A DNA stretch of 64,000 bases, taken from positions 558,001 to 622,000 of the forward strand of contig WIUZ02000001.1 of NCBI GenBank assembly GCA_015956445.1, given 5' to 3'. Below the pieces are notes generated by a model. That model was not told the DNA's origin, ran no database searches, and saw only the letters and a program-made list of their open reading frames with translations. The DNA comes from Thelephora terrestris (lineage: Eukaryota > Basidiomycota > Agaricomycetes > Thelephorales > Thelephoraceae). Below, piece after piece: positions 8,241-49,000 of the stretch (positions are counted from its first letter, which is position 1; every line of letters begins with the position of its first letter). A program made the position numbers and the translations under genes.

Positions 8241-8730
8241 TACCATTTTTGAGTCGCTTATGTAAGCCATCAAAATTGCCTATTTTGGAAAGTCTTTCCT
8301 AAAAGAGAATTTCATTTTGAGTTGCTTATGTAAGCAATCAAAATTTCCTTTTTTGGGAAAGAACCCTCCAAAAGCATTTTTGAGACACTTATGTAAGCCA
8401 TCAAAAATTTTCTTTTTTGGTCGGTCACATGACCTGATTACATAAGCAACACCCACTTTTTCGGTCACATGATCTGCTTATGTCAGCTATCAAATTTTCC
8501 CAAAAAGGAAATTCAATGCCAAAATCATTTTTGAGTTGCTTATGTAAGCCATCAAAAATTTCTTTTTTTGGTCAGTCACATGACTTGCTTACATAATCCT
8601 CTCTCACTCATACATCACATGACCAGCTTATGTTGGCCATCAAAATATCTCCATTTGGAATATTCCTTCACAACACCTCTCCATCATTGCTTATATAAGC
8701 CATCAAAACTTCCCCTTTTGGAATTCCCTT
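8241..8730 (+). repeat. Diverged satellite-like array (GCTTATGTAAGCCATCAAAA)
   Basis: The word TTGCTTATGTAAGCCATCAAA recurs about seven times at intervals of roughly 60-85 bp, alternating with CACATGACCTG(C/A)TTA and CTTTTTTGG blocks. GCTTATGTAAGC is itself nearly palindromic. The array lies where the minisatellite lies in the second fold-back element, so it may be the outer arm of F1. No genes are visible. Confidence 0.5.
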
Positions 8731-8750
8731 TCCTGGCCATGTCACATGAC

Positions 8751-9060
8751 CTTCTCACACAATCCATCACGGACCCACCAATGCCCCTGTCATATACCCC
8801 CATTAGGTCCAAATATATCCCGATTAGGCCCCCAATGCTACTTGACCACCCCTTTGTGCTTCCCACAGATTTAACGTCAAAACCCCGTCTGCCAACATCA
8901 TCTGGTCACATGACCCCCTCACACGACCAATTCCGTTCCTACTGATGCTCCTGTTATGTAATCCCATCAGGCCCAAATATGTCCCGATTAGGCCCCAAAC
9001 ACTACTTGACCACCCCTTTGTGCTTCCCACACATTTATTGTCAAATCCTTCCCACTGATT
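8751..9060 (+). repeat. Two diverged direct copies of a ~175-bp segment
   Basis: The block running from TGCCCCTGTCATATACCCCC to the TGTGCTTCCCACAGATTTA region (about 8781-8875) recurs near 8947-9040 with about 15% differences. Both copies include CTACTTGACCACCCCTTTG. No gene is visible here or in the following 250 bp. Confidence 0.5.
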
Positions 9061-13900: not shown

Positions 13901-16670
13901 CACAATCGGGAGGAAACGCAAGGGAACAAAGTCCAAGGGGAACTGTCTACTAAGGAACGCAGGTCGCAGGTCTGGGGTCGAAGGGCGCAGGTCGCAGGTC
14001 TAAGTCGCAGGTCGAAAGGGAAAATGTCGGGAAGTCGCGAGGGAGAATAGGGAGAGAGGGACATGTGGTGAAGTGAAGGGACAGGCGAATCCTCATCGGG
14101 ACAATCGAGAATGCTGAGGGAAGTCATCCAGACCTCGCGCAGCGGTTGTCGATAGTCGAGTGAAGGTCGCAATTCCGGATAGTGTCCGAAATATGGTCAC
14201 GACACCGCGTCGTCAGATGGCGGTGAGGACCCAGAAGAAGAAAGAGCGCAAGAATCCGATGACTCGTACTGGTCAACGTTGTTGTCCCTCCGACAAGTCA
14301 CATCAGGTTCGGATGAAGTTGAAGGTGGAAGTGGCGGGTCTCCAGGACCGTTATGGATTCGCATTAGTGAGTGCAGCGTTGACGGACGTGAAGCGAGAGA
14401 TGTATGATAGTTTGTTCCACGATGTGTTGGGATGCAGGGAGTGTTGGCAAGACCCGGTAACTCAGGTGTATTCTTATTGTCCTCAGAGCGTCCATAATCC
14501 TCATCACTTCGCTCATCGTTGTCCGTATCCTCAGGACTGTCCTTGTGACGTGGATCCGTTTGTTCTTGTTTAAGCTTGTAATATCTGTTAGCTTTCTTTG
14601 TACTTTTATTTCTACGAATAAGACCAATGTCTCAAATTATCTGTTTGATTTTGAATAACATGTCACGTGTTCGTGACAGTCCGCCACGCCACCGCTTCCA
14701 CTAGTCTCTTGTGGTCGCTCGTTCGAGAGGGAGAAAGCCGGGTAGGTTCTCTGTTTGGATATTTGAGTATGACTCTCGATTAATCAAACGGCCCAGGTGG
14801 AACGATTGGAGCGCGAGGTGAAGGAGGCGAAGGCAGACATCCTTCGTTTGTCGGCGGAGGGTCTTCTGATGAAGGAGACTCTGGCCGCCTTCCAGCAAGG
14901 AACAAACAAAGCGTTGGAGGCAATGGTCGCCAACCATCAGGAGTTGATCGCCGGATTGAAGGTTAGAGATAACAACATCAAGGGTGTGCTAGCCAGGAGG
15001 GATGAAAAGGTAGCTTTCCTCATCTCGAAGACGAAATGAGGGAGGCTGACACTTCTTCTAGACTGAAGAACTCAAAAACGTGGTGGCCGTGTTGACGGCG
15101 CAGGTTGAGTCCTTGCAGGACAAGACCTGCAACTGCAAGGAGGGTCCTGTGTTGGTTGGTCAGGGGACAGCCGATGTTCCGTACGAGTTGGAGTACACCA
15201 ACGAGGTGGTACTCCCATCGCCTAACCCTTTGTCCTATGCCATGCCTCCAATCGAGAATGCGGTTCCCGTACCGACTCCGGCTCCGGCTTCCACTTTGGC
15301 CGCATCCGACAAGGAGAATTGTGGGTGCTGCGTCTTGCAGCCGATCCATCAATTGGTGAAGATCGAGGATGAGGTCATGGTCGTCGATCGGGCTGAAGAT
15401 GCTCCGAGGGTTGCCGAGGTACATCCGGTGACAAACACTGGGGGCAGACCCCTACTTACCCAGCAGGCAAATTGAGAGTTTTTTGAGAGCTTTTAAACAA
15501 TTTACTCAGGTTTTACCCAGTGGGTTAATTGTGAACAAATTCAAAACTTACCCACCACTTTGCCCATACTTTGATCAGTGGGTAAGTTTTGAATTTGTTC
15601 CGAACAAGTTGATCAGTTTACCCATGAGGTATTTCTTTGACAAAGCTCCAAGGGTTCTTTCACAAATTGCACAAAATGTGTCCACCACATTATCTGAGCC
15701 ACTCATCAAGAGTTCTTTCAAAACTTGCTCACAATACACTCAGTAACATACCCACCAGGTTCTCTTTGATGTAATCACAACAAACTCTTGATTTGCTCAG
15801 TTTTATGACAAACTCTCAACAAACCCACTGTGTACATGCTTGAACATGTTGTGGGCAAATCACTGGGTAATTTGTGAAAGAACTCTGGGCAAGTGGCTCA
15901 GGTCATGCAGTGGACACATTTTGTGCAATTTGTGAGTGAAAACTTGGGGTTTGTCAAAGAAGTACCTCATGGGCAAGCTGATGAGTTTGTTGAGAACAAT
16001 TTCAAAACTTACCCAGTGATCAAAGTGTGGGCAAAGTGGTGGGTAAGTTTTGAATTTGTTCACAATTAACCCACTGGGTAAAATCTGAGTAAATTGTTTA
16101 AAAACTCTCAAAAAACTCTCAATTTGCCTGCTGGGTAAGTAGGGGTCTGCCCCCAGTGAAAGGGGCAATGTTGCAGACGCTCTTGACGCCGTCCCGCCCA
16201 TTGTATGACCGCATCGGCTAATCCTTACCCTCAACCAGTTGAGTCGGATGGTGACCAGTCTGGTCGAGGTGAGGAGCGAGGATTCCGATATTGGGTCCAC
16301 CGTCCTTACCGACAGGTCGAGTCAGAGATCCAACTCCGCCACCAGCTTCGCCTCGCAAGACAGGATCCCACCCAGGGGTCCGACGAGGGAGACGGAGGGT
16401 CGCTTGATGACTACGTCGATAGTGCTGCCGAGCAGTCACCCGGTGATGGAGATGTGGGACCAGGTGTTCCGCAGTTCAGTGACATCTGGGAGGCTGATTG
16501 GTCCACTCGAAGGCATCTCTTCCTATCGGCTTGAACTAGTTGTTCAGCTGAGCGCCGAAGACGGTGACGCCATGTTCGGGGAGGTCCTTGCAAGAAGGGG
16601 CCAACACTACGATCTCCGGGATGGACAGTTGATGACCTTTAGGCCTGCCGTAGATAGAGTCGATTTCTGA
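10913..16670 (+). CDS. Gene C, copy 2, coiled-coil protein, split by two insertions
   Basis: Exon 1 (10913-11044) starts MSFPNNHTYKVANGIST. Exon 2 (from 11144) encodes ILEVVKEVDAKRLRETIPH, LTWDNELWVRTMIAEKVAF and LWYTLQRGIYDQDLLEHGA, and is interrupted by AB copy 3 (11392-14678). It resumes at 14684 and ends near 14741. The next exon (14797-15009) gives the coiled coil RLEREVKEAKADILRLSAEG. The exon from 15062 gives VVAVLTAQVESLQDKTCNC and the Pro-rich region, and is interrupted by the CACTA-like element at 15436-16158. The conserved end RPAVDRVDF stops at 16668. The introns (about 50-100 bp) match copy 1. Family unrecognised. Confidence 0.55.
11412..12035 (-). CDS. Gene A, copy 3
   Basis: The open frame has 207 codons from 12035 (MFSAPNPFPSTSPVQRPVI) to 11412, ending PSANPLAPHKQ just inside the element's left terminus. 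It keeps SIWEYKLIRSLQVNR, LLTHFPYYR, FLLGADHQFLWNSD and LWWEVPTELPYSV. The TATA box of the family lies upstream near 12142. Function unknown. Confidence 0.6.
   Translation of the reverse strand: MFSAPNPFPSTSPVQRPVIPDARRSIWEYKLIRSLQVNRTAGLLTHFPYYRLFAALDAGVTTPPFLLGADHQFLWNSDTTESVLATVYFSISPAFYFPSPRIHLTTDIHTHSPAIIVLWWEVPTELPYSVIEYLVNFERLSDQDFEPFVQQLSQFCQDYHSPVHPYQTESSLLLDIPPPLTSTPSTPFKTRPDTPHPSANPLAPHKQ
12634..14573 (+). CDS. Gene B, copy 3, split by an LTR-like insertion
   Basis: The ATG is at 12634 (MSAYIANNALLNAAATPF). It encodes the N-terminal and helical parts (EREDRILKLEKRMDVMYV) and the FALEHW block, then is cut by the element at 13167-14204. The C-terminal part follows with CRECW, YCPQS, HNPHHFAHRC and CPCDVD, ending DPFVLV. 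Together with copies 1 and 2 this shows that the Cys/His cluster is the best conserved part. Function unknown. Confidence 0.5.
13167..14204. mobile_element. LTR-like element of ~1.04 kb inside gene B of AB copy 3 (solo-LTR-like)
   Basis: It begins TGAACTAGCC and ends GGTCACGACA, with the 4-bp duplication CCGC on both sides (13163-13166 and 14205-14208). The undisturbed gene B of other copies confirms that this stretch is extra. It has a TATA-like TTTATATAC at about 13592, a GA-rich simple repeat at 13510-13550 and short repeats of GCAGGTCGCAGGTC near 13960-14020. There is no coding region of note. TG...CA ends and no internal genes suggest a solo LTR. The family is not recognised. Confidence 0.5.
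15436..16158. mobile_element. Second non-autonomous CACTA-like element, near-perfect fold-back
   Basis: The terminal inverted repeats start CACTGGGGGCAGACCCC and the two halves (about 15436-15730 and 15860-16158) are reverse complements for most of their length, around a centre of about 130 bp. The 3-bp duplication AAA flanks it (15433-15435 and 16159-16161). The first 11 bases equal those of the element at 6094-6620 but the rest differs, so the two are distinct families probably mobilised by related CACTA transposases. It interrupts gene C copy 2. Confidence 0.75.
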
Positions 16671-19689: not shown

Positions 19690-22600
19690 GGGATCATCAA
19701 CGCTTGCATCACTTGGAGCCACATCGCTTTCACATTTCTACCTCCGCACTCGTGTTTGTGGTGGTGCAAGATCTTTCCTACCATCTGGAGGTCCAGTTGC
19801 ACCAATTTCTGCCAAGGACACTCGCCCAAAACGGAGGGGGTCAGATGAGGACGTTTGGGAATACCCAGATGTAAAGATCATAGGTATTCCTCTCGACCTA
19901 TCTTGTATTCTATTCTAAACCCTGTCACACAGAACTCAGTAAGAAGACCTGGAAGTCTGCCATATATGACCACTACAACATTTCGCTCGAACGGTGTCAT
20001 GAAACACGAACACTTACCTTTCGGTTTACGTGCTGATTTGATCCAATCGGGCACCAATCGTTGACTTGCGGTAGGCTCAGCACCTCCCAAGGAACATCAA
20101 ACTTGGAACGTTCCCGTAGGAAGTGCATGCAACAACGTGGAGCCAATGAAAATCCCATTCCTGATGTTCCTCAACCACCACCCCTCACATACTCTCAGCC
20201 AAAGCATCACGCACTGATTGCCGCTCGGTGCGCAAGTAGCAAACGTTCATTCAACTCTGTTGCCGACCCATATTACATCCAAGAGGTGGAGATGTTATGT
20301 CCGGGAACCAAGATACCATCTCCAGCAACGGTTTCTCGAGACATCAACATGATGTACAAGTTTGGTGCAGAAGTTGTACACAAGTACTTTTCGGTTAGTG
20401 CTTTCTTGTCATGTGTGATAAAGCCTGTGCTCAATCCCCACAGAGACACAATGGTGCTGTCTACCTTGTGATGGATGGGTGGACATCACCGATCTTAGCA
20501 TGCTACCTTGGAATTGTGGCAATTTGGTTTCATGCTGGAAAAATTCACTGCTGCATTTTGGAGTTTGCCAGGTATGAGGCTCCATTTTCTCAACCTGCTT
20601 ATATGGTAATGGTATCTTGTTTAGAGTGAAAGAACGGCATACCGGTGAACATCTTGCAAGTCTTGTTGCTGATTGTGTCCAACGGTTCGGGTTGGAGGAT
20701 AAGGTAAGAAAGGCATCTACAGTCCATCAACCAGAACTGATGTGTTTCTGGCAGTTGCATGTTGTCTGCATGGACAACGCTGGGAACTGCAATACCATGG
20801 TTGAACACCTATCTAGGTTAATCCCTGGTTTTGGTGGTGCCAGGTCTTGTACCCGGTGTTTTTCTCATACCATCAATTTGGTTGCTAAGGTTGCCATTGC
20901 CTTATCATTCCTCGTCAATATCAGCTGATCCAAGAACGCATAGGCTTTTCTCTCGTTTTTTTATCGGCAGCGCTCAAAACCCAAGACCAATGAACCTGAA
21001 AAACCAGCAAGACGTGGTGGCCGAGCAAAGCAACCTGCACCAGAAGGAAATGACCCAGACCTCATTGCAGCACCTGAACCGACTTGCGTAGAACTTGAAA
21101 TGTGTGAAGCACTGGAATACGAAGATCCAGATGACCTTGAGCCAGTAGATGCAGATAAGACCGCCCACAATAAACAAGCTGTCACAACTGTACGAACTGA
21201 GGCGGTATCAATCGCCAAGACCAAATTCTACCTGGAGCTTGATATGGATGAGGCACACACTGCAGTTGGGTTATTTCCAAAGGTTTTTTCAGCCTCGAGT
21301 CCAGGGGATCTTTGTTGACTCACAGTTGGAACAGGTTGTGGGTTTGGCTTGAAAACTCAATGAGTCACAACCCGTTCAGCTCGAATTTAAACAACTTGTC
21401 AACTCGAACAATACCCAGCGCCGCACACTCACTCGTCGGGTTCCAACAAGATGGAACACTGACTTCGCTGCCCTCAAGTCACATGTCATGTTCAAGAAAG
21501 AGGTCCTTCAACTAATCGCAGCCAATCCAACACTAAAAAAGTTCATGTTGGCCGACAAGCAGTGGGTCCTTGCCAAACACCTAGCTGACGTGCTTGTGGT
21601 ACGTTCTATCACCCATTGCTTCGAAGCACGATCAAAACCTACCCTCACTCTAGGTCTTCGATGATATCACAACCCTCTTTTCATCTGCAAATGTGCCACT
21701 CGTTCATGAGGTGGTGCCAATGCTCATCCTCCTTGAAGAACGGTTGGAAAATATTCGTGATTCATTGGACTTGCCAAAGGTTATTCGCATTGCAGCGACA
21801 GCAAGCCTCCTTGTGGTTGAGAAGTACTCGAAGCTCTCTGAACTATCCGAGGTATACCGCATTGCTATGGGTGTGTATTCCGTCGCTTCAATATATTTAC
21901 TCTAATTTACTCTAATCTTGCACAACAGTGATGTGCCCTGACAAAAAGCTCACATGGTTCAATGAAGAGGAGGCAACAGTGGCAGAAAAACTTGTCCGGC
22001 AGCGGTGGGTGGATACTTATGAGAAATTTTCACTTGCAGAGGCGTTGTTGCAGGCTAATGGTTCTCCTGTAAAGGTATGCTATATTTACCATAATTAATC
22101 ATACAGTTCTGAGCCAGAACCCAGATGCATTCAAAGTGGCTTTTGAACGGACGGCACCGGACCCAACGGTCACCACATCAGGAAAACCGGGGTCAATATA
22201 TATGCGCTTATAATCGCCAGAAGCAGGAGACGATCTTGCAGTCACATACACGCGTGCATCCAAATTGGATGCGCTTGTAGCCCCTAATGGTGGCTTGGGA
22301 GCGCATCCACGAAATCCTCAGCCAGGGAGCCAAAAAAAAAAAAAATTCCGCTGGGGCCACCCATACTGATCCATAGCCTGTCACCCATTTGGCCACTTCA
22401 TTCAGTTCAAGAATTGTTTTACTTGTATTCCAACCAAACCAAACAATTATGGACACAAAATATTGTATATACACTGGCGGACCAAGTTGCAAACCCACCT
22501 TGGGGACCCAACCGAACCTCTCACAGACCGGCCATCAGAAAAGGTGGCACAAAGTTATTGCAGTTATTTGAGGTTATCCGAAGTTATTTGAGGTTATTCC

Positions 22601-23897
22601 TTACCTAGTTTTTTGACCTACATCAAACAATCACGAAATAACCGAGGAAAAGGTGAATAAGGTGAAATAATCAACAAATAATGTCACTGCCACCTATTCT
22701 GATGCGCTCCCATGGTCCAAATTGAACCCTGAGTGACGTCATCCAAGCGCGCCTCCACCGGATCAAATGAGTTCGATAAAAACAGAGGGGAAGGAGGGGG
22801 AAGGCCAGGGTGCTTATCAGTGATGAAACCGCTCCACATACTCCTCCTCGGCTGTACCCAGATGGGTTTAGATCAGGGTGTGGGTAACCGACACGAGAAT
22901 AAACAGGGAATAAATGTGCCGAGTCTAGGGATGAGCGAACGATGATGGTGGAAGTTTGAGGGAAAGGGAAGTAACGCGCTCCGATTGCAAGAGGGGTCCT
23001 TATAAAGCTTCTATAAATCTTCCATAAATAAACATAAATATTGGAGGTCTGTGGGTTGCTGACTGAGATACGGAATGGGAGGCCTGCGCGAGTCGGCACT
23101 GGCTTCCACAGCGAGAGGACTGGTGACATAGCGAAAGTTTGACATTGATATTACCTCGCGACCGTTGCGCGCGGTGGCGCCAGTGACTGGCGATCAGAGA
23201 ATCATAACAGGCCTACCCTCTGAGACCCGGGGTAATTCAGAGGGTGGATTCCCGTCCAAGCCAGCCTTCTGGTTTAGAGGCGTGTATAAATGTTGGGACG
23301 AGTGTACAAGTGCACAAATACATTTTTCAGGCTGATAAAAGCGCTCACAGGTGTGAGCCTAGGCGTACAAGCGCATACAATCGCCACAAGCGCATCCATG
23401 ATGACACCTGTTTTCCTGATGCAGGATATGTTTACGACTCTGTCGACGCTTACCTTATGGAACCGCCAATCTCCACACATGAGATCAACAATGCTGGAGG
23501 GGTTCTGCAGTATTGGGAGAACCTCAGAGCAACCCGTCCACACCTTGTTAATATGGCACTGGACTTTCTGACAGCCCCTGGTAAGTTAAGCGTCTGACAC
23601 CTCACCACCAGCCCATAACTAACTTGACTAGCATCATCGGTTGACGCTGAACGCGCATTCTCAGGAGGTCGCCTTCAAGTGAACCACCTCCAACACGGAA
23701 CATCATCCCAGACTTTCAAAGCGCAAATGGCCGTCGGCTCTTGGGTTGGGACCGATATCTTCCCAACATTGGAACCATTTGCAAAGATCATCGAGAAGGA
23801 GTCTAGCCGGTCACAGAAAGGCAAGGGAAAGGCGGTGATTAGTGATTCTGATGACGACACCGATTTCGAGTGGAAGGGGGAGGACGGCTATGAGTAG
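19690..23897 (+). CDS. hAT-superfamily transposase, multi-exon, with an insertion near its 3' end
   Basis: The order of hAT blocks is clear across short introns. A BED-finger-like N-terminus comes first (KKTWKSAIYDHYNISLERC, then STSQGTSNLERSRRKC). Then AARCASSKRSFNSVADPYY and LCPGTKIPSPATVSRDIN follow. The RNase H-like core has YLVMDGWTSPI (first catalytic Asp region), LHVVCMDNAGNC (second Asp region), RCFSHTINLVAK and RVPTRWNTDF. CPDKKLTWF follows, and a C-terminal dimerisation region gives YLMEPPISTHEINNAGGV, TRPHLVNMALDFLTAP and SSVDAERAFSGGRLQ. It would catalyse cut-and-paste transposition. The exons look open. A foreign stretch of about 1.2 kb (22208-23390) separates the core from the dimerisation exon, so the copy is probably inactive. 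Terminal repeats were not located. Confidence 0.75.
22208..23390. mobile_element. Unclassified insertion within the hAT gene
   Basis: The hAT coding match stops near GGGTCAATATATATGCG and resumes at GATATGTTTACGACTCTG. Between them are inverted subterminal words (GGATGCGCTTGTAG near 22265 and CCACAAGCGCATCC near 23392), an A13 run at 22336, repeats of GTTATTTGAGGTTAT near 22565 and AT-rich TATA-like sequence near 23000-23030. No coding domain is recognised. A DNA element with subterminal repeats is the most likely identity; the exact ends are uncertain. Confidence 0.4.
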
Positions 23898-26219: not shown

Positions 26220-27350
26220 TAACCTGCCCCGTTTCACTCACATATACTTCGCGACCTATTTCCTCTCCGTTCTGACGAGGAATCTGTCCGCGTCTGCGGT
26301 TTGGCCGATAGATCTGTGTTTCCTATCTAGCTCGAATCTCGCCTTGAAAAGTCCCACTATCCTCTCGATCCTTTTCGTTCCCCGACCCATTCGCTGTTTT
26401 GTCCTCGTTCTGAACGCAGCGATCCACTCCCTTTTTACCGCGATGTCGATGTCGACCCCTCTCAACCTCCTAGACGTCGACAACTTCACAATCCCCGTTT
26501 CAGGTCATTGACCAAGCAGCAAATGCTTTTACCTGGAATGGGCTACTCGGAACGATATCAAATCTGGTTCGCTGTCTATGTTTGCTGACGACCAAAAACC
26601 CCTTTATTGAATGCCAGAGCAACATCTATTCAGAAGGGGGTCTTGTTCGGGACGACACGGTACTGAAAGAGGGCAGTTGGTACACATATCGCCGCTCCTC
26701 GTAGAAGTGTTCGACCACTACGAGAAGCACAACCGTACTAAGGCTCACTTCTGTCTCGTCACCACCCAACCCACATCCTCTCTCCGAAGGTCTCCTGACG
26801 ATAGGCGCTTCGAATGACTCATGTCTCAAAGTTCGCCGCGGGCTCTCCAAGCATCCCACGGCGAGAATCAACCGGAGCATTGGATCCCCTGGTCAGCATC
26901 TGAACCTCAATCCACGGGTCCAGAAAGGTGCGGTCCCGCGAGTTCTTACGCCCGATGCCGCATCGTTGACAAGACCGACCACTCCAGACACCCCCGAGTC
27001 TGTTCGCCTGGACGACGCTCTGTTCAAGGGTAGGATCCTTGTCATGCGTGGAAGGTTTTCGTGCTCTGCGCTTCTCCTATTCCCCTGGCCTACTTCGGTT
27101 CTACGTTCGGACTCCTCGGACGCATATTCGCCCTTTGCGGAGCCTCTACTCTTTCTCCGGACAACGGAACCTCCCGGGTCCATTTTCACGAAACCTATAC
27201 AACAGACCATTCGAAGAAGCAAAAAGAACCTGCATGATTTTACTCGTTCCGTGCCAGCCCGCTCTTATCATCCAGCGCATCTTTTAGCCTCCCTCTTGGT
27301 TCGTACGCGCACCGCACCTGTCATTACTTAGGGTCCATTCGTAGCTAAAG
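26220..27350 (+). repeat. Five-fold repeated 1.1-kb segment with decayed coding traces (copy 1)
   Basis: It starts CTGCCCCGTTTCACTCAC and recurs at about 33905-34950, 38875-40030, 51370-52500 and 59125-60185. Plus-strand peptides shared by the copies include SLSMFADDQKP, DDTVLKEGSW and LKLDAASLTRLTIPD, with a splice-like site before SPRALQEFYSEKRPGALG. Frames are broken differently in each copy, so this looks like a gene that decayed after duplication. I do not recognise the family. Confidence 0.4.
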
Positions 27351-27769
27351 AGGAAATGATAACGGTTTCACCGTCTAATAAGCACCCATCTTTGGTGATC
27401 CCAGCACATCGACGTGAATCGAAGGCTCTATCGAACATGTTGAAGATTCTACACGACCTAGAAAATTTTTCTTGCAATTTCATGTGATTCGTCCGCTTCC
27501 CAGACCGTAATGTGATCTTACCAACGCTGAATGAACCCGCACAAGCTACAAGGTGGGTGCCCAGGCCAACGGCACAGCACCACTCGAGACTACTCAAAGT
27601 GTGCTCACGCGGTTTCTCAGGAGGGAAGAAATGATAATTACAAAGCAAGCATCAGGTCTACAGGTCGATTTGCGTCGGCCACAAAGAGTGCGGGTGCGCT
27701 GGGGCGAAGCGAGGGAGAGATTTTTAAATCGAGCAGATACAGTCGACATTACTCCAACCCGATGTATCG

Positions 27770-30571
27770 TCACTGGTACATATCGTACGGTACCTGCGCG
27801 GGCCGGACGACGCTAGGCGGGATGTTCGCAGGACTTTCCCACAGGCCTGGGGGCAGGGTACCTGCAGGAGCTTGTTCGATGTCGTTCGGTATGGTGGTTG
27901 CTTTCCGCCGGTTAAAGAAAGCGATGAGCCCTATCGTGGAATCGGAGCAATCAGTTTTAATGGATGAGCAATCCGGGGTATGGTGTTTACTTTCAATTAT
28001 GATTTGCGGCAGTCTTGTAATCCATTTCCTTTTTCGGGGAGCTTCGGGCCTGCGAACTTCCTCGTTTATGATGTAATCTGGTAGTTGTCCTCCACCATAA
28101 GGTGGCACTTCAAAAATGTTCAGACGACAACCGCAAAATAGATCTAGTGATGGGACGTACCCCCCTGTGCATGAATGACTGGTTTGTTGATCATAGACTC
28201 CAGAAAGTAAAACTGGAGTGGGGATAGCATCTTCAGAACTCCATTTCGGCGATGGACAAGGGAAAATCTGCAGAGTACGTCAACCACCTCCCTTACCCGT
28301 CCTGTTCCGCAAAAAATTCCCTCCAATTGTTCTTCTTCAACCCCAGATTGGAAGGATGCAATTGCCTCGAGCACGTCCCGAGCCACAGTACCTAGCTCTT
28401 TCATCCTTGGAGAGCGGAACACCGGCTCGATAGTGCTCTTGAGCGCCTCGTAATATGTCGTTCTCAGCATGCCTTTTGGGTCGTCCCACATCTTCAACAG
28501 TGTTTGTTCATCCCAGCTATTTTCGCGTATGGTCCTAGCGAGTAGTTCAATGGAAAACAGGTGAAAGTCCAGTTTTGTGATGAGGGTGTCCATTGTAGGT
28601 GTCCTGGCCAAGTTGCAGAGGCTGTAGAAAATGTCTCGTGCCCCACTCTCGGTCGGAGTTGGTACTTCGACCCGATGGAAACCATGAATGTCCGGATACA
28701 TCCTGCTGGTAGTGACCAGGCAGACATTTTCATAGCTACCAAATTCTTCTATCATTGCGTGAATTTCCTCAGCTTCAGGGCCCAGTGGGTCGAGGAGGGA
28801 ATCCACACTGTCAAGCAATAATAGGAGTGGAGACAGGGACTGGAGGTGTGACTTGAATTGTGTTTCATCAGCGTGGGTGGCGCCAGATAGGCGCTGGATG
28901 AAACCTTCCAGCGAGTTCTCGATGACATTGCAGCACATGAAGTAACGGTTTTCACCAAACTTGGCTTTGGTTCGGTCATTTTCCAGGACGTTACGGGCCA
29001 CGAAGGACTTCCCAACACCAGCCGGCCCAAAAATGGCAACCGATGCAACTTGATCTGTCAGGTCCAGTATTTCGTTCGTGATTCGTGAGAGCCAGTCAGA
29101 TGATGCCGGTGGAAGGATTGGGACTGCCGGTGGAAGGACTGCCGGTGGAAGGACTGCCGGTGGAAGGACTGGGACGAGAACTCGGACATTGTTGCGGCTG
29201 ATGAGGATTTTCCGATGAGCGGCTGGCTGCCAGCAAGAGGAACACTGACCAGTCATGCAAGATCTCTAATACCTCCGATATTTTCGGGCGATTTACATCA
29301 TCGTCATCCCAGCATCTCTCTACCAGCGCCCACAGCTTGGCAGTGAGATCCACATGCGTTGGCCGCTCCGGCCGCTTCCCCCTTTCCAGAGCCGACCGTG
29401 CCACAGAATCAGGTTCAGGGAAGAATGGAACTTGACCGGTAAAAGCCTATGATAGGGTGGGGAGTAGGTTTACCAACTGTCTGGTCAGGGCTAGAATGTG
29501 CGAACTACCTCGATCGTGACCATTGCAAAGGAGAAAATATCACCCTCCCTCCAATACTGCCAATTGAGATAGGGATCAGCCCATCGCATACAGCAACGGA
29601 GCATGGTTGGTGATAGCGGTTTAAACGCTTGGGCTAAGCCATATTCAGTGATGCACGGGCGACCAGAGTCATTGACGATGATGTTGGGCTGTCTGGGTAT
29701 CAGCATCATTGCAGTATGGGCCTCATGTGATTGCGCACCCCACCAAGATCTCCATGAGCTACATCATGGGAATGGAGGTAATTGAGGCCATCAGCAATTC
29801 CAATCAACTTTTAATGGTGTGAGCAAAACCCGAGACATGAGAAGGGAGACACTCACAAGATCAAGCCGGTTTGCATCTGGGTGATTGTTGATATATTCAT
29901 TTAGTTCTACGCCAGGTGCCCGGGCCGAAACAAAATGGATAGGTTCATCGGTGATGCCAAGGAAAGGGATAATGTTCGGGTGCGTCAAACGTTTCCACTT
30001 GACAATCTGACCAAATCTAAACTGTCGATCGAGTCAATGGGGAAAGCGGTAGAGGCAAGAGCACTGATCAAGTACCATCTCGACATACCACCATTTGGAT
30101 GAGAAGGAGGGGTTGAGTTTCTTGGCACAAACCTTCGAACGATTTATTGACCCTTCGGAGATGATATCATAAGGCCCCATAGAGGTTGGACCGGCAATGG
30201 GAACAAAGGAGGAAACATCGAGGATATACGATCGCGGTAACCTCTTCACGTTGTAGCATACCGCTTGGAGCACATCCAGGCATTTTCGATATGCAGGATC
30301 AACGGGATCGAGAGTATCGAGGGCCTGTGCATGTTCAGTATAGAGGGCGTACAGTAAAACGTGCACAAACGTTGTCCAGATACTCGATGAGCCACGCTGC
30401 GTCCTCGTTCCGAAGGCTTTTGAAAACGTCCGAACCTTGGAAGATTTCCCTGGAGAGGAGGCTGACGAGTTGATCAGGGAAGTTGAGTGAAGACCTTTCG
30501 AGGCGGTCTAGCTCTTGTAGAACTCCGCGGGATGGTTTGTAAACCGGTCGCTGAGCGTTGGGGGAGGACAT
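27770..30571 (-). CDS. Kinase/NB-ARC (NLR-like STAND) protein, copy 1
   Basis: The start at 30571 gives MSSPNAQRPVYKPSRGVLQE and a helical N-terminal domain. Exons joined by introns of about 45-60 bp then encode a kinase-like domain: VCAKKL (ATP-binding Lys), LTHPNIIPFLGI, YLHSHDVAHGDLGG, QPNIIVNDSGRPCITEYGLA, GDIFSFAMVTIEV, AFTGQVPF and ALVERCWDDDDVNRP. An intron at about 29188-29239 restores the phase into a PPAVL-repeat linker and an NB-ARC domain: GPAGVGKSFVARNVL (P-loop), LLLLLDSVDSLLDP (Walker B), CLVTTSR, and HLFSIELLA in the GLPL position. A Pro/Glu-rich tail ends at 27770. There is no LRR, WD40, TPR or ankyrin domain. HRD is HGD, the catalytic-loop Lys is Gly and DFG is EYG, so kinase activity is doubtful. 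The likely role is a fungal NLR-type sensor or self/non-self factor (inference). All exons look open. Confidence 0.75.
29100..29175 (-). repeat. 15-bp coding minisatellite in the kinase-NB-ARC linker of copy 1
   Basis: GGACTGCCGGTGGAA and variants are repeated four to five times; read on the minus strand they encode PPAVL repeats just upstream of the P-loop. Copies 2 and 3 have only one LPPA unit in this place. This is an in-frame length difference between paralogs. Confidence 0.7.
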
Positions 30572-38345: not shown

Positions 38346-41300
38346 TCCTTGAGATCCACTTTGTCACCTAACCGCGATTGTTAGCGTCGCTGGCTTGGTC
38401 AAGCAGTGCCACCATACATGATCACGCCAAATGTTACAAGCCCACAAAGTCAACAGGCCTCAGCGCCTCAAGAAGGCGTGGAACGTGAACAAAGCTGCTC
38501 TCCGCAACGGAGACGCGTGAGCGACGAAACTTCTCGAACCCTCAACCTAGATATCAGCGGTACGCCCCTCAGTGGTTCATACCAGTGGCGGTAAACTAAA
38601 CGGCTTGAACAGGATGGCAACGACGAAGGCAGGGTGTTCACACCGCAAGGTCTTGAAAGGGGTGGTGAGCTGGAAGGGGTGATGGAGAGGAAGATATGAG
38701 AAGCCTCACGTCGACTGTCACCGTGAAAAGCAAACACCGTCAATTCGGTGGATCCTAAGTGAGACTCCCGCCAGAAGTTGACAAGCATCCCATCTCTAGA
38801 CTGTTTTCGCCCACGACACGCCCAAACTCACAACGCCCAAGAGAACTACCCGCGCCCATCTCAAAGTCAACCTGTCCCGTTTCACTCACGTATACTTCGC
38901 GACCTGTTCCCTCTCCGTTCTGAGGAGGAATCTGTTCGCGTCTGCGGTTTGGCTGACGGCTCTGTGTTTTCTATCTAGCTCGAATCTCGCTTTGAAGAAT
39001 TCCCACCTTCCTCTCGATCCTTTTCGTTCCCCAACCCATTCGCTGTCTTCCCGTTCTGAACGCAGCGACCCGCTGCCTTGTTATTGCGACGTCGATGACA
39101 ACCCCATCCAACCTCCTAGACGCCGAAACCGTCAAACTCCCGGTTCAAGTCATTAGCCAAGTAGCAAAAGGTTTCACCTGGCGTGGGCTTTTCGGAACGA
39201 CACCAAATCGGGTTCGCTGTCTATGTTTGCTGACGACCAGAAATCACCTTTTTGAATGCCACAGCAACATTTATTCAGAAGGGAGTCTTGTTTGGGACGA
39301 CACAGTACTCAAGGAGGGGAGCTGGCGCACGAATCGACGCTCCTCGTAGAGTGATTCGACCCACTACGAGAAGCACGACCGTATCAAGGGTCACTTCTGT
39401 CGCGTCACCACCCAACCCACATTCTCCCTCTCCGAAAGTCTCCTGACAATAGGCACTTTGAGCGACTCATAGCTCAGATTTCGCCGCGGGCTCTTCAAGA
39501 ATTCTACAGCGAGAAACGACCCGGAGCATTGGGTCCCTTGGTCGGCGTCCAAACATCAATCAAAGGGTCTCAGAAAGGTGCGGTTCCGCAAGTTCTTAAG
39601 CTCGATGCCGCATCGTTGACAAGACTAACCATTCCAGACGCTCTTGATTCTGTTCGCCTGGACGACGCTCTGATCAAGGATAGGATCCTTGTTATGTGTG
39701 GAAGGTTTTCATCCTCTGCGCTTCCCCTATCCCCACCGTTCCCCACGACTATGCTCCTAGCCTACTTCGGTCCACGTTCGGACTCCTCAGACACACATTC
39801 ACCCTTTGCGAAGCCTTTCCTCTCTCTCCGGACAATAGAACCTCACGGGTCCATTTTTACGAAACCTACACGACACAACGTCCTGAAGAAGCAAAAGAAC
39901 CTTCACTATCTCCCTCGTTCCGCTCCTAGCCTCTTTCAGTGTACCCATTCTTGTCACCCAGCGCATCTTTTAGAGCACCTCCCTCCTGGTTTGTACGCGC
40001 ACCGCACCTGTCGTTACTTAGGGGTCCATTAGTAGTTAAAGAGGAAATGATACCCGTTTCACCGTCTAATACAAACCCACCTTTGGTGATCCCAGCACGT
40101 CAACGTGAATCGAAGCTCTATCGATCATTGTGAAGATTCTACACGACTTGGGCAGGCCTCAGGGAAAACCTACAAATTCTTCTTGCGGTTTCATGCGACT
40201 CATGCGCTTACCAAACCGTAAAGTGATTGTACCAACGCTGAATGAACCCGCATAAGCTACAAAGTGGGTGCCCAGGTCAACGGCACAGTACCACTCGAAG
40301 GCTCCTCTAACTGTGCTCACGCAATCATTCAGTAGGGAAGAAATGATATTTACAAAGCAAGCATCAGATTTACAGGTTGATTTGCGTCAGCCACAAAGAG
40401 TGCCGCTGCGCTGGGGCGAAGGGAGGGAGAGATTGTTGAATAGAGCAGATACAGTCGAAATTACTCCAATCCGATTTATCGTCACCAGTCGATATCGTAC
40501 CCTGCCCGAGGTGGGATCTGTTGCCAAGGAACGTTGAGCGCCATAGCTGCTACATCTTCTTGTGCGGCGCTAGGCGGGATATCTGGCGAGTCATCTTGTG
40601 TGGCGACGGGTGGCGGATTCGTAGGACCTTCCAGAGGAGCGATAGGCGGGATCTCTGGGGGGTCATCTTGTACGGCAGTAGCCAGGATATTCGTAGGATT
40701 TTCCCGTGGGCCTGTGGACGGGATGTCTGCAGGAGCTTCTTGGATGTCGGTCAGTATGGTGCGTGCTATCCGTCGGCCAAAGAGCGCGAGGAGTCCTATC
40801 GAGGAATCAGTGCGATCAGTCAGAGTGGATGAAGATTTCGGGGTATAGTGTTTACTTTTCTTCACGATTTGCGGCAGTCTTCTGATCCATTCCCTTTTTC
40901 ACGGAGCTTTGCGGTATGGAGTCGTGTGGGATGGACCACTACCTGGGGGTTCACAGGTAGGCGCAGGAAGACCTTTGGTAAGTCACGAAACGGATGGAAT
41001 GGGAAGGACATACTCAGTCGTGGAGGCGCACAATCAGTGTCCTTGCAGAAGCTCGAGCGTGAGGTGGTCAAAGATAGCAGATAATCTGGTGGCCCGCGAA
41101 TAGAGTAAGGTAGCACTTCAAAAGATGGTCATGCGACAACCGCGATACAGATATAATGAGGTGAACATACCCCCTTGTGCAGCCATACAGTCTGGACCCC
41201 ATTTAATGACTTCCTCCGTTTTGGCATATACGATCATAGACTCCAGGAAGTAGAACTGGAGTGGTGAAAGCATCTTCAGAACTCCATTTTGGCGATGGAC

Positions 41301-41559
41301 GAGGGAGAATCTGCAAAGCACATCAACTACCTCCCTTACTCCACCTGTACCACGAAGGATTCCCTCTAAATGATCTTCTCCAATCCCAGATTGGTAGGCT
41401 GCAATCGCTTCAAGCACATCCCGGAGCCCCTTCAGCTATCTTTTCTCCATGGGTCATGGGCCATGCAACGTTGTACAACGCGTTGTACAACCCATGACCC
41501 ATGGAGAAAAGATACCATTGTACAACCCATGACCCATGGGTAATGGAATAGTATACGTT

Positions 41560-43575
41560 GCCCATGCCCCATGGGTTGTACAACACTATCCCTTCCCCAT
41601 GCCTCATGGGTTGTACAATGCTATCCTTTCCCCATGGGGCATGGGTTGTACAACGCTATCCAATTTCCATGCCCCATGGGTTGTACAACGCTATCTGTTC
41701 CCCATGGGTCATGGGTTGTACAACGCTATCTGTTCCCCATGGGTCATGGGTTGTACAACGCTATCCATTCTCCATGGGGCATGGGTTGTACAATGCTATC
41801 CATTTCCCATGGGTCATGGGTTGTACAACGCTATCCATTTCCCATGCCCCATGGGTTGTACAACGCTATCCAATTCCCATGCCCCATGGGTTGTACAACG
41901 CTATCTGTTCCCCATGGGTCATGGGTTGTACAACACTATCCGTTCTCCATGGGGCATGGGTTGTACAACGCTATCTGATTCTCATGCCCCATGGGTTGTA
42001 CAACACTATCCAATTCCCATGCCCCATGGGTTATACAACACTATCCATTCCCCATGGGGCATGGGTTGTACAACACTATCCATTTCCCATGGGTCATGGG
42101 TTGTACAACGCTATCCATTTCCCATGCCCCATGGGTTGTACAACGCTATCCAATTCCCATGCCCCATGGGTTGTACAACGCTATCTGTTCCCCATGGGTC
42201 ATGGGTTGTACAACGCTATCCTTTCTCCATGGGGCATGGGTTGTACAACACTATCTGCTCCCCATGGGGCATGGGTTGTACAACACTATCCTTTCTCCAT
42301 GGGGCATGGGTTGTACAACACTATCCTTTCTCCATGGGTCATGGGTTGTACAACACTATCCAATTCCCATGCCCCATGGGTTGTACAACGCTATCCATTT
42401 CCCATGCCCCATGGGTTGTACAACACTATCCTTTCCCCATGCCCCATGGGTTGTACAACGCTATCCATTCTCCATGGGGCATGGGTTGTACAACACTATC
42501 CATTTCCCATGGGTCATGGGTTGTACAACGCTATCCATTTCCCATGCCCCATGGGTTGTACAATGCTATCCAATTCCCATGCCCCATGGGTTGTACAACG
42601 CTATCTGTTCCCCATGGGTCATGGGTTGTACAACGCTATCCTTTCTCCATGGGGCATGGGTTGTACAACACTATCTGCTCCCCATGGGGCATGGGTTGTA
42701 CAACGCTATCCATTTCCCATGGGTCATGGGTTGTACAACACTATCCATTCTCCATGGGGCATGGGTTGTACAACACTATCCATTTCCCATGGGTCATGGG
42801 TTGTACAACCCTATCTGTTCCCCATGGGGCATGGATTGTACAACGCTATCCATTTCCCATGCCCCATGGGTTGTACAACGCTATCTGTTCCCCATGGGTC
42901 ATGGGTTGTACAACGCTATCCTTTCTCCATGGGGCATGGGTTGTACAACCCTATCTGTTCCCCATGGGGCATGGATTGTACAACGCTATCCGTTCCCCAT
43001 GGGTCATGGGTTGTACAACGCTATCTGTTCCCCATGGGGCATGGGTTGTACAACACCATCCTTTCTCCATGCCCCATGGGTTGTACAACACTATCCTTTC
43101 TCCATGGGTCATGGGTTGTACAACACTATCCAATTCCCATGCCCCATGGGTTGTACAACGCTATCCATTTCCCATGCCCCATGGGTTGTACAACACTATC
43201 CTTTCCCCATGGGGCATGGGTTGTACAACACTATCCATTCTCCATGGGGCATGGGTTGTACAACACTATCCAGTTCCCATGGGTCATGGGTTGTACAACA
43301 CTATCCAATTCCCATGCCCCATGGGTTGTACAACCCTATCTGTTCCCCATGGGGCATGGATTGTACAACGCTATCCGTTCCCCATGGGTCATGGGTTGTA
43401 CAACACTATCCAATTCCCATGCCCCATGGGTTGTACAACACTATCCATTCTCCATGGTGCATGGGTTGTACAACACTATCTATTTTCCATGCCCCATGGG
43501 TTGTACAATGCTATCCAATTCCCATGCACCATGGGTTGTACAACAGCATCTTGTGCCCATGGGGCATCAGTTGCA
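41560..43575 (+). repeat. 35-bp minisatellite, left arm of F2 (~57 units)
   Basis: The unit is CCATGGGTTGTACAAC, then a CTATC box, then a variable 6-8 bp (CATTTC, TGTTCC, CTTTCT and others), then CCATG plus four variable bases (GGGC, CCCC or GGTC) plus ATGG. The unit length of 35 bp is not a multiple of three and no unit carries stops, so all three plus frames stay open for 550-720 codons. The implied 35-residue repeat protein is therefore an artefact of period and composition, not evidence of a gene. Confidence 0.85.
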
Positions 43576-44160
43576 GAATGGTGTCCTTTCTCCATGTCCC
43601 ATGGATTATATCACTATTCCAGGAAAGGAGATACTTTATAAATCAACCATTAGCTGTGTGAATTTGAAAAAATTAGACTCTGTTTGTATGCATGATAGAC
43701 CATATATCAGTTTGTGGCTCTAACCTAATGGAAACTAAACTTAACCTGATAATAGCCACAACCTAATCCTCAATCTAACCTGAGCCAATGTAAACTTGAC
43801 CCATGAACCTAAGCCTAACCTAATCCTAAACCTGGTCTAATCCCAAATCTAACCCTAACCTGACCTGACCTAACCTAACCTAACCTAACCTATACCTAAC
43901 CTAACCTACCTATCATGACCTGTTTCAGCCTAATGTCATGTATGCCAGCCAAGACTAACTTCACCCAGTTGCAAACATATGACTTGGGTCACAGGACCAT
44001 AAAGCAAACTGCAGTCCCCTCACTCTGTGCCCAACCATCCCATAAGCCCACAGATGCACATATATATCATCAGCAACCCAGCATCATGCTTATCACCCAT
44101 GTTCAACCACAAACCACTCTCACCCTTTGTTCTGTGCTATCTCAAAGCCTGACCATAACT
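43576..44160 (+). repeat. Core of F2, left copy
   Basis: By eye 43610-44137 is the exact or near-exact reverse complement of about 44291-44820. It includes a TAACCTAACC tract at 43855-43915 and the block CACCCTTTGTTCTGTGC shared, diverged, with fold-back element F1. The small ORFs here (MTCFSLMSCMPAKTNF...) exist on both arms only because the arms are palindromic. Confidence 0.75.
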
Positions 44161-44269
44161 CTAGCTCACCCACCCATATTAATCCTTGTGTGGAATATGT
44201 TATAAGTCTATAAACCATATGTTTGTAGGCCACTTGCTTGTGGGCCCAAGGAGGTGGATGAACTTGAGT

Positions 44270-44860
44270 TGTGGTTTGTCTGTGAGATGGCACAGAACAA
44301 AGGGTGAGAGTGGTTTGTGGTTGAACATGGGTGATAAGCATGATGCTGGGTTGCTGATGATATATATGTGCATCTGTGGGCTTATGGGATGGTTGGGCAC
44401 AGAGTGAGGGGACTGCAGTTTGCTTTATGGTCCTGTGACCCAAGTCATATGTTTGCAACTGGGTGAAGTTAGTCTTGGCTGGCATACATGACATTAGGCT
44501 GAAACAGGTCATGATAGGTAGGTTAGGTTAGGTATAGGTTAGGTTAGGTTAGGTTAGGTTAGGTCAGGTCAGGTTAGGGTTAGATTTGGGATTAGACCAG
44601 GTTTAGGATTAGGTTAGGCTTAGGTTCATGGGTCAAGTTTACATTGGCTCAGGTTAGATTGAGGATTAGGTTGTGGCTATTATCAGGTTAAGTTTAGTTT
44701 CCATTAGGTTAGAGCCACAAACTGATATATGGTCTATCATGCATACAAACAGAGTCTAATTTTTTCAAATTCACACAGCTAATGGTTGATTTATAAAGTA
44801 TCTCCTTTCCTGGAATAGTGATATAATCCATGGGACATGGAGAAAGGACACCATTCTGCA
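44270..44860 (-). repeat. Core of F2, right copy
   Basis: This is the reverse complement of the left core, with no difference that I could find over about 500 bp outside the centre. The TTAGGTTAGG tract lies at 44517-44580. Confidence 0.75.
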
Positions 44861-46000
44861 ACTGATGCCCCATGGGCACAAGATGCTGTTGTACAACCCA
44901 TGGTGCATGGGAATTGGATAGCATTGTACAACCCATGGGGCATGGGAATTGGATAGCATTGTACAACCCATGGGGCATGGAAAATAGATAGTGTTGTACA
45001 ACCCATGCACCATGGAGAATGGATAGTATTGTACAACCCATGGGGCATGGGAATTGGATAGTGTTGTACAACCCATGACCCATGGGGAACAGATAGCGTT
45101 GTACAACCCATGACCCATGGGGAACGGATAGCGTTGTACAATCCATGCCCCATGGGGAACAGATAGGGTTGTACAACCCATGGGGCATGGGAATTGGATA
45201 GTGTTGTACAACCCATGACCCATGGAGAAAGGATAGTGTTGTACAACCCATGGGGCATGGAGAATGGATGGTGTTGTACAACCCATGCCCCATGGGGAAC
45301 AGATAGCGTTGTACAACCCATGACCCATGGGGAACGGATAGCGTTGTACAATCCATGCCCCATGGGGAACAGATAGGGTTGTACAACCCATGGGGCATGG
45401 GAATTGGATAGTGTTGTACAACCCATGACCCATGGGAACTGGATAGTGTTGTACAACCCATGCCCCATGGAGAATGGATAGTGTTGTACAACTCATGCCC
45501 CATGGAGAATGGATAGTGTTGTACAACTCATGCCCCATGGGGAACGGATAGTGTTGTACAACCCATGACCCATGGGGAACAGATAGCATTGTACAACCCA
45601 TGGGGCATGGGAATTGGATAGCGTTGTACAACCCATGCCCCATGGAGAATGGATAGTGTTGTACAACCCATGACCCATGGGAAATGGATAGTGTTGTACA
45701 ACCCATGGGGCATGGGAATTGGATAGTGTTGTACAACCCATGCCCCATGGAGAACGGATAGCGTTGTACCACCCATGACCCATGGGGAACGGATAGTGTT
45801 GTACAACCCATGCCCCATGGGAATCGGATAGCGTTGTACAACCCATGCCCCATGGAGAATGGATAGCGTTGTACAACCCATGGGGCATGGGAATTGGATA
45901 GTGTTGTACAACCCATGCCCCATGGGGAAAGGATAGCATTGTACAACCCATGAGGCATGGGGAAAGGATAGCGTTGTACAACGTTGCATGGCCCATGACC
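44861..46000 (-). repeat. 35-bp minisatellite, right arm of F2 (~33 units)
   Basis: These are the same units as the left arm in reverse orientation. Nearest the core the order of variant units matches the left arm apart from a one-unit difference; further out the two arrays differ. Array length has therefore changed independently in the arms while the core stayed identical. Confidence 0.85.
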
Positions 46001-49000
46001 CATGGAGAATTGTCACGATGTATGGTCCATGACCCATGGAGAAAAGATAGCTGAACCCTGTGCATCCCGAGCCTTGGTACCTAGCTCTTTGATCCTTGGA
46101 GAGCGGAACACAGGCTCGATAGTGTTCTTGAGCGTCTCGTAATATGTCGTTCTCAGCATGCCTTTTGGGTCGTCCCACATCTTCAACAGCTCCTGTTCAT
46201 CCCAACCATTTTCACGTATGATCCTAGCAAATAGTTCGATGGAAAACGGGTGGGAGTCTAATGTTGTGATGAGGACGTCCACTGTAGGTGACCTGGCCAG
46301 GCTGCAGAGGCCGTAGAAAATGTCTTGTCCGCCACCCTCGGTCGGAGTTGGTACTTCGACCCGATGGAAACCGTGAATGTCCGGATACGTCCTGCTGGTG
46401 GTGACAAGACAGAAGTGTTCGTAGCTGCCAAATTCTTCTATCATTGCACCTATCTCCTCAGCCTCAGGAGAAAGTGGGTCAAGGGCATAATCCACACCGT
46501 CAAGCAACAATATGAGTGGAAGGGAGGACTGGAGGTGTGATTTGAGTTGTGCTACATCAGTGTGAATGGTATCAGACAAGCGCTGGATGAAGCCCTCCAT
46601 CGAGTCCTCGAGGCCATCGCAACACATGAAGTAACGGTTGTCACCAAACTTGGCTTTGGTTCGGTCACTGTCCAGGACGCTACGAGCCACAAAAGACTTG
46701 CCGACGCCGATCGGCCCATAAAGGGCAACTGATGCAACTTGATCTGTCAGGTCCAGTATTTCATTCGTGATTTGTGAGAGCCAGTCAGATGATGCTGGTG
46801 GAAGGGCTGGGACGAGACCTCGGTCATCATTGCGGCTGATGAGGATTTTCCAATGAGCGGTTGGCTGCTAGTAGGAAGAGGAACCCTGACCAGTCATGCA
46901 AGATCCCTAATACCTCCGATATTTCGGGACGATATGCGCTTTTGTTGTCCCAGCATCTCTCTACCAATGCCCACAGCTTGGTAGTGAGATCCATGTGTGT
47001 TGGCCGCTCTGGCCGTTCTCCCCTTTTTAGAGCCGACAGTACTGCTGAATCAGGTTCAGGGTAGAATGGAACTTGACCGGTGAAAACCTATGTTGGAGTG
47101 GGGAGTAGGTTGACCAATTGTCTGGTTGGGGCTAGTATCTGCGACCTACCTCAACCATGACCATCGCAAAGGAGAAAACATCAACCTGCGGAGTCGCCCT
47201 GATCTTCACAAGAGTCGTCTCAAGCAGCGTATCACCCCACTCAATACGCGGGTCAGCCCATCGCTTACATTGACGAAACTTGTCTGAGTTGAACTGGAAA
47301 AACAATGAGGGTAAGCCGTATTCCGTGATACACAGGCGGCCAGAGTCATCCACGATGATGTTGGGCTTTCTGGTTATCAGCATAGCTCAATAAGGGCCTC
47401 ATGTGATTGCGCACCCCACCGAGATCTCCATGAGTCACATTACGGGAATGGAGGTAATTGAGGCCATTGGCGATGTCAATCAACTTTTAATGGTGTGAAC
47501 AAAACCCGAGACATGAAGGGAGACACCCACAAGATCAAGCCGGTTTGTATCTGGGTGATTGTTGATATATTCTTTTAGTTCTACGCCAGGTGCCCAGGCC
47601 CAAACAAGATGGATAGGCTCGTTGGCGATGCCAAGGAAAGGGACGATGTTCGGGTGCGTCAAATAATTCCACTTGGAAATATTATAAAATCCGTTCTGTC
47701 GATCGAGTCAATGGGGAAAGCGGGAGAGGCAAGAGCGCTGATCAAGTACTCGCTTGACATATGACCATTTGGATGAGAGGGAGGGGCTGAGTTTCTTGGC
47801 ATAAGCCTTCAAACCGTTTATCGACCCTTTGTAGATGATTTCGTAAGGCCCAATAGGGGTTGGTCCGGCAATGGGGACAAAGGACGAAACATCAAGGATG
47901 TACGATCGCGGTAACCTCTTGAAGATGAAGCATATCTTTTGGAGCACATCCAGGCATTTTCGATATGCAGGATCAACGGGATCGAGAGTATCGAGGGCCT
48001 GTGCAGGTTCAGTATAGATGGGGTACAGTGAAACACACACAAACATTGTCCAGATACTCGATAAGCCACACTGCGTCCTCTTCCCGAAGGCTTTTGCAAA
48101 CATCCCAGTCTTGGAAGTTTTCCCTGGAGAGGAGGCTGGCGAGTTGATCAGGGAAGTTGGGTGAAAACCTTTTGAGGCGGTCTAGCTCTTGTAGAGCATC
48201 GTCGGATGGTTTGAAAACCGGTCGCTGAGCTTTGGGGGAGGGCATGTAGAGCGGGCCTTACTAGCAAGGTGGAAGCGGGTGAGCTGTCCCTGAGGACACT
48301 GGCGGTTTATGTAGCCATCCCTGAGCAACGTGGAAGCCGCACAGTTGCGGCACCTCGATCCGGGATTGGCAAGAAAGGAACAATGCAGAGGGTCTAGATC
48401 CAGGAGCCGTTGGCCACGATGCCTAGGACTATCGCTGATCGAGCGCTGGTGGCTTATTCCGAGACTCCAGGATAAAATAAGTTCCCGACCACTCTTCCAC
48501 GTTTCCAGAACTTCGCCTCACCTCAAATACTACTCCGCTCGTCTGTACGAAAATCATCATTCCTTTGTTCCTCCATTGAATTCACCGCTCGGTACGCCAG
48601 TACAAACGTCGAGTGGCTATCGGCTACGTTTGCCTTTTGTCAACGCGCACCTCATCCGGGCCATTCTGCGCCATCGGGCGAGATCAATTCTGCAAGTTCT
48701 CCTGTCCTCGTTCGTCATTTGGGTACTCTTGAAGTACCCACGTCTGCACATCATTCGCTTGACTGTCCTGATATTGATACACTCCATCTAGTGGTGTGCT
48801 TATTGGGCACACTACAGTGACAAATGATCAGACGGTCTTCTCGGGACGGAGAATAGGGACTGTTCGATCGACCAACAAGCCACACCGTCATCGGTGAGAC
48901 ATTCGCGGAGTCTGAACCGACTCCCGCCAGCACAGCGAGCCTCAAAGGACATCAAATATCATTTGTGCCGAAGAGCTGAAACGTTCAGGCAGATTAGATC

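Follow-up and report, generated by a model that had tools for sequence, protein, structure and literature searches.

The subject of this work is a palindromic element in a 64,000 bp stretch of the Thelephora terrestris genome (GenBank assembly GCA_015956445.1, contig WIUZ02000001.1, positions 558,001–622,000; hereafter, the window). We conclude, with a probability of roughly 0.77, that we are dealing with a non-autonomous copy, of fold-back build, of a DNA transposon from the hAT superfamily whose target site duplications (TSDs) are 7 bp long. The evidence falls into three parts: the structure and TSD of the element itself, a family of dispersed copies that share its two unlike ends, and one copy—the C23 element—that carries a hAT transposase gene between those ends.

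The palindrome is a transposon insertion in an NLR-type gene

A first-pass annotation of the window, made from the sequence alone, had described a palindrome of 35 bp satellite arms, core and spacer at positions 41431–46055. The described build stands, while comparison with other copies pushed the ends outward, giving an element of 4,639 bp (41424–46062). The left (A) end reads GAGCCCCTTCAGCTATC, and the right (B) end, read inward, CACAGGGTTCAGCTATC. The outer 7 bp of the two ends are unlike, and the inverted repeat starts at position 8. Immediately outside lies the TSD, CATCCCG, which is perfect over 7 bp; it replaces the imperfect 11 bp duplication reported earlier. The longer, imperfect match arose because the element starts with GAGCC and the right flank, past the duplication, reads AGCC.

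Internally, long inverted arms of tandem repeats surround a middle domain, and copies with TSDs are dispersed in the genome, as is characteristic of fold-back elements; the architecture agrees with the likeness to Drosophila FB elements that had been pointed out. The longest inverted pair detected in the palindrome measures 1,459 nt, with 89% complementarity. The core, first thought to be identical in both arms over about 540 bp, is indeed present in both but is nearly identical (681 of 696 aligned positions, with one 5 bp gap) and longer (~650 bp of non-satellite sequence); its mismatches lie mostly in the innermost ~36 bp. The spacer is short, as stated, at 114–115 bp rather than ~120 bp. 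The long open reading frames (ORFs) within the element are satellite read-through, and no transposase domain was detected in this copy, in keeping with the first-pass annotation.

Two smaller features of the satellite and ends were recorded. A stretch of ~34 bp between two copies of CCATGGGTCATGG is present at the right end (45960–46062) and missing at the left (41424–41520), and four further places, all at B ends, gave matches with the short form, which is without these ~34 bp. Separately, a 69 nt satellite-like stretch folds better than 200 of 200 shuffled versions, which fits palindromic units and is no proof of function.

When the flanks are joined with a single copy of CATCCCG, a continuous minus-strand frame results. 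A paralogue at ~27–29 kb of the window encodes the same protein stretch, unbroken at the insertion site, and serves as a natural empty site (the control being a paralogue, not an allele). Insertion into NLR-type coding sequence is thus upheld; the more specific NB-ARC label is unconfirmed, the only Pfam matches of the tested ORF being AAA/NACHT and below cut-off.

Long, satellite-bearing palindromes pose problems for assembly, and this general difficulty is what speaks for an assembly fold with no real palindrome behind it. We consider such a fold very unlikely, because there are copies of varied arm length in unconnected places of the genome, each flanked by a duplication of its own. In addition, the arms of one copy differ in length and sequence. 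The palindrome is a transposon insertion.

The element belongs to a dispersed family with two unlike ends

Genome-wide counts refer to the element's own genome (40.6 Mb, 60 contigs). Exact 15-mer ends were found 58 times for A and 56 times for B, while reversed-pattern controls, with one mismatch allowed, gave 2 and 5 matches for one end and 0 and 2 for the other (i.e., 0–5 per strand). The set used for pairing consisted of 63 A ends (including five ending GCGA) and 58 B ends (including two with one mismatch); one A row (C12:412947) and three B rows (C1:3357625, C5:62176, C56:683940), of a one-mismatch, non-repeated type, were omitted. The family forms 52 convergent A-B pairs of 0.46–12.5 kb (median 4.45 kb), together spanning 0.63% of the genome, so that the further copies expected in this genome do exist. 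Twenty-five of these pairs were read whole or in part, and the others are known through end patterns and BLAST places.

Convergent neighbours within 13 kb of each other are A-B in 52 cases, B-B in one and A-A in none. In a sister family (described below) there are 21 A-B cases and nothing else, bringing the A-B arrangement to 73 of 74 cases for both families together. Since convergent neighbours are almost all A-B, one A end plus one B end seem to be needed per element. If such a pairing rule holds, it would recall the 12/23 rule known from RAG, a system with which hAT has been compared.

Perfect 7 bp TSDs flank 28 of the 31 end pairs examined; this figure and the number of A-B pairs both exceed chance expectation by a wide margin. 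The first batch contributed 22 of 25, with no perfect duplication of any other length, and the second batch six of six (four sister-family pairs and two pairs with GCGA ends). The exceptions are L032 (one mismatch), L036/L021 (two mismatches) and the B-B element L019 (five mismatches), the last of which is likely a recombinant. Where additional tandem ends are present (L022 and L024), the duplication was tested at the outermost end only.

The TSD length bears on a suggestion in the first-pass annotation, namely that a Mutator-like element (MULE) may have moved the palindrome. Most described fold-backs have been assigned to Mutator (PMC4079207), and the Mutator/Foldback family Tm1 likewise has asymmetric ends (PMC3169594). 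However, the duplications here are perfect at 7 bp, not 9–11 bp, and the genome holds two matches to the MULE transposase family, neither of them inside the 73 A-B pairs. MULE mobilisation was rejected on these two grounds, and we give it next to no credence.

A hAT transposase gene lies between the ends of one copy

The hAT dimerisation domain has four matches in the genome at E 0.01, and one of them (E 0.0025, narrowly above the curated cut-off) falls inside an A-B pair on C23, although first-family pairs make up no more than 0.63% of the genome. This C23 element has a perfect 7 bp duplication of its own, CACGTGG. The 35 bp satellite adjoins its left end and, inverted, its right end, and a multi-exon hAT gene precedes the right arm. 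Exon 4 corresponds to positions 2–45 of PF05699 (E 1.6e-5) and exon 5 to positions 46–83 (E 0.13, below cut-off alone); the joined exons reach E 3.4e-12 against Pfam and match four distinct Hermes-type chains (E 1.9e-6 to 3.2e-6). At least one copy, the C23 element as read outside 837250–841150, therefore holds a hAT transposase between its own ends, and the ends and 35 bp satellite around that transposase are the same as those of the fold-back copies. The first-pass annotation had suggested looking for a MULE transposase between the same termini; the only transposase found there is hAT, which is the best-supported superfamily.

These observations suggest a mechanism in which the C23 hAT transposase would (i) pair one A end with one B end, and (ii) move transposase-less copies in trans. 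The palindromic satellite units may then act as arrays of transposase binding sites.

A number of points weigh against the hAT assignment. Firstly, the 3.9 kb middle of the C23 element (837250–841150) lies outside the sequence read, and the hAT gene may be nested. Secondly, ~170 bp separate its stop codon from the first satellite unit. Thirdly, the fold-back core, used as a query, gave no match in the C23 element, which is therefore not the complete parent of that core, a sequence that seems peculiar to fold-back copies. Fourthly, a single intact-looking copy of the hAT transposase was found in the genome. Fifthly, the ends (GAGCCC at A and CACAGG at B) do not conform to what we take to be the usual hAT terminal consensus, with the GAGCC of the A end a misfit. 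Finally, hAT duplications are usually 8 bp (PMC12730594), with 5–7 bp in described variants, and Kyakuja elements are described as likewise yielding 7 bp duplications in the same fungal subphylum (PMC12730594). The 7 bp found here match the hAT7 variant, not the usual hAT length.

The first of these points leads to an alternative in which the C23 hAT gene came along as a nested passenger, while the family's true transposase is another one, perhaps lost from the genome. A transposase match was found in just one of the 73 pairs, the left boundary of the C23 gene lies in the stretch outside the sequence read, and nested elements do occur in arms (a Copia ORF at L015 and a PIF1 ORF at L021). Yet hAT matches are few, and one of the four sits exactly within an A-B pair; the C23 gene ends close to the satellite (~170 bp); and 7 bp duplications fit a known hAT type (PMC12730594). 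We consider a passenger gene unlikely, though it is the alternative that we take most seriously.

Less likely still is movement of the family by a Kyakuja (KDZ) transposase. Kyakuja elements make 7 bp duplications in Agaricomycotina and have termini 5'-CA..TG-3' (PMC12730594); the B end here begins with CA, and KDZ domains are abundant, with 125 genome matches, some near contig ends. On the other hand, none of 62 KDZ positions (the 125 matches with neighbouring exon matches omitted) lies inside the 73 pairs. The A end begins with GA, hence termini of CA..TC, together with an inverted repeat, whereas Kyakuja is described as being without terminal inverted repeats (PMC12730594). One B-like 13-mer near two KDZ matches (C1:3357625) was followed up and rejected, since 3.7 kb of sequence showed neither a partner end nor a matching duplication; our reading of its surroundings, from similar words in a nearby ORF, is that they are coding.

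Movement by a transposase of the P superfamily, to which Galileo belongs, was also considered, as Galileo is a fold-back with long arms that are repetitive internally (PMC3688188). No PF21787 match was found in the genome at E 0.1, but this is weak evidence, as controls of the same search were silent too; a hAT transposase was found instead. We attach almost no weight to a Galileo-like source.

A genome search with the joined C23 protein found one other place, at ~21.3–23.8 kb of the window (46–81% identical by piece), ~18 kb from the fold-back element. No A or B ends or 35 bp satellite were seen beside this copy (20441–23807). The window's own hAT gene was accordingly rejected as a source: it has stops and an insert, with neither satellite nor A/B ends adjoining.

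A sister family has the same build and a different satellite

In the sister family the ends read GAGCCCA and CACAGGT (28 and 26 ends, respectively, which give 21 pairs); its arms, in the three copies in which they were seen, consist of a 45 bp satellite. At L014, 45 bp arrays with the palindrome CGTACGGCGCCGTACG lie on the stretch between a sister B end and a first-family insertion, and resume on its far side (968–1948 and 7612–8962); the first-family copy is inserted in sister satellite. The palindrome CGTACGGCGCCGTACG occurs 338 times in the genome, against 0 for the reversed control. Among the matches listed, 50 of 50 are inside two sister-family pairs on C1, where they form two blocks around a middle of ~2.1–2.2 kb. 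Two families with distinct satellites, then, have near-same ends, duplications of equal length and a common fold-back build.

A broader, more tentative proposal is that a hAT transposon took on the fold-back design more than once, in two or more parallel families (satellites of 35 bp and 45 bp, near-same ends), under an A-plus-B transposition rule, and that one transposase-bearing copy serves dozens of satellite-armed copies without transposase, their arrays of binding sites being the strongest competitors for the enzyme. We regard this as possible, and would place the odds somewhat against it. Apart from this proposal, the shared ends and satellite of the C23 element would by themselves tie to hAT a fold-back design that has been known chiefly in other groups of transposons. 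They would also make testable the old question of why fold-backs keep evolving satellite arms, by asking whether a hAT transposase binds the 35 bp and 45 bp units.

Exchange between arms is partial

Taken relative to A and B, the spacer points one way in 15 and the other way in 8 of 23 copies (a hand count that omits the B-B element L019 and L021, with its imperfect duplication). The core and spacer set comprises 27 loci, of which two are without spacer (L010, L029) and three without one anchored half (L020, L021, L025), leaving 22 copies for comparison of core halves. Divergence is 0.90% within a copy, 1.17% between copies on the same side and 1.73% between copies on opposite sides, with mean gap bases of 16.4, 46.8 and 49.5, respectively. 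The lengths of the two halves are correlated (r = 0.876, a value that none of 10,000 permutations of the 22 copies attained).

Because spacers occur in both orientations, and arms are more alike within than between copies, we conclude that the inverted arms recombine with each other, flipping the spacer. The exchange is partial, since its own partner is the nearest or tied for just 7 of 44 halves and side-specific bases beside the spacer persist; full homogenisation of the two arms was rejected on the same evidence. The low divergence and intact duplications indicate that the family is young. Its near-identical palindromes, mostly 2–7 kb and in one fungal genome, offer a natural system in which to study how arms invert, how copies recombine ectopically and how NLR-type genes are hit by insertions.

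Exchange within the satellite, for its part, could give tandem duplications of ends. Three A ends at intervals of 807 bp are present at L022 (6044, 6851, 7658), and two B ends separated by 137 bp at L024 (6756, 6893); both are likely products of unequal exchange in the satellite. The B-B element at L019 (633–7220), which is without a duplication, looks like a chimera from recombination between copies.

Comparison with known systems

Where the transposase of a fold-back is known, the element has mostly been assigned to Mutator; Galileo belongs to the P group (PMC4079207, PMC3688188). Searches of openly available literature (subscription papers and Repbase being outside this scope) found no description of a hAT fold-back or of a fungal fold-back family.

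The accessible text on the systems closest to ours shows partial likenesses. hAT families with 7 bp duplications (hAT7) are known from the rusts Puccinia and Melampsora; they share with our family a hAT transposase, the fungal host phylum and the duplication length, but that text says nothing of fold-back satellite arms, and the likeness is one of description, not of a transposase tree (PMC12730594). Tm1, from root-knot nematodes, has asymmetric outer 7 bp motifs outside its inverted repeat, variable tandem-repeat arms, and both non-autonomous and transposase-bearing members; it differs in having 9 bp duplications, a Mutator-type transposase and a 13–15 bp unit (PMC3169594). Galileo of Drosophila is similar in its long arms of internal repeats, in having some members that carry a transposase and others that do not, and in arm-driven rearrangement, and its transposase binds sites in the arm repeats; it differs in its P/THAP transposase and animal host, and the available account mentions no two-motif end pairing (PMC3688188). 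The Tetris and FB fold-backs of Drosophila match in their succession of terminal domain, tandem-repeat arm, inner domain and middle domain; their duplications, however, are 8–10 bp, and Tetris, for which no transposase is known, was placed in Mutator by duplication length (PMC4079207). Kyakuja shares the 7 bp duplications and a CA at one end, but has CA..TG termini without terminal inverted repeats (PMC12730594), and KDZ is in no A-B pair here.

Table 1. Coordinates of the fold-back element, its parts and related features. Positions without a contig label are those of the window.
Feature	Position	Strand	Remarks
Whole fold-back element	41424..46062	+	A end left, B end right; limits from comparison with other copies
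TSD CATCCCG, left copy	41417..41423	.	7 bp
TSD CATCCCG, right copy	46063..46069	.	7 bp
A terminal motif GAGCCCC	41424..41430	+	outside inverted repeat
B terminal motif CACAGGG (read inward)	46056..46062	-	outside inverted repeat
Left satellite arm	41561..43544	+	35 bp unit, 56.7 copies
Left core half	43600..44157	+	TTAGG-like repeats
Spacer between arms	44158..44271	.	both orientations among copies
Right core half	44272..44832	-	
Right satellite arm	44865..45982	-	35 bp unit, 31.9 copies
NLR-type gene interrupted by element	41200..46760 (approximate; stretch read)	-	continuous frame once flanks joined
Uninterrupted paralogue of interrupted gene	27000..29100 (approximate)	-	natural empty site
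Decayed second copy of hAT transposase gene	20441..23807	+	stops, insert of ~1.3 kb
Transposase-bearing A-B element	C23:836841-844347		7,507 bp
Sister-family copy with 45 bp arms	C1:3282345-3287394		
Sister-family copy with 45 bp arms	C1:3387563-3391615		

Further observations

Four pairs have A ends with GCGA in place of GCTA (C21:124513-126367, C58:1495582-1500635, C3:225207-227492 and C60:461254-469613). Both of the GCGA-end pairs tested carry perfect 7 bp duplications, and such pairs could hold unsatellited relatives.

Two long copies contain, in the interval from A end to core, ORFs for a reverse transcriptase (RVT_2; Copia; L015, 2–1930) and a PIF1 helicase (L021, 37–2364). These are probably nested foreign elements, and both loci were dropped as transposase carriers for that reason. 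The ORFs of L025 gave no Pfam family above cut-off; they may resemble a Helitron protein.

The window also contains a separate, short inverted repeat at 15436–16158, with arms of 209 nt (94% complementarity) lying 305 nt apart.

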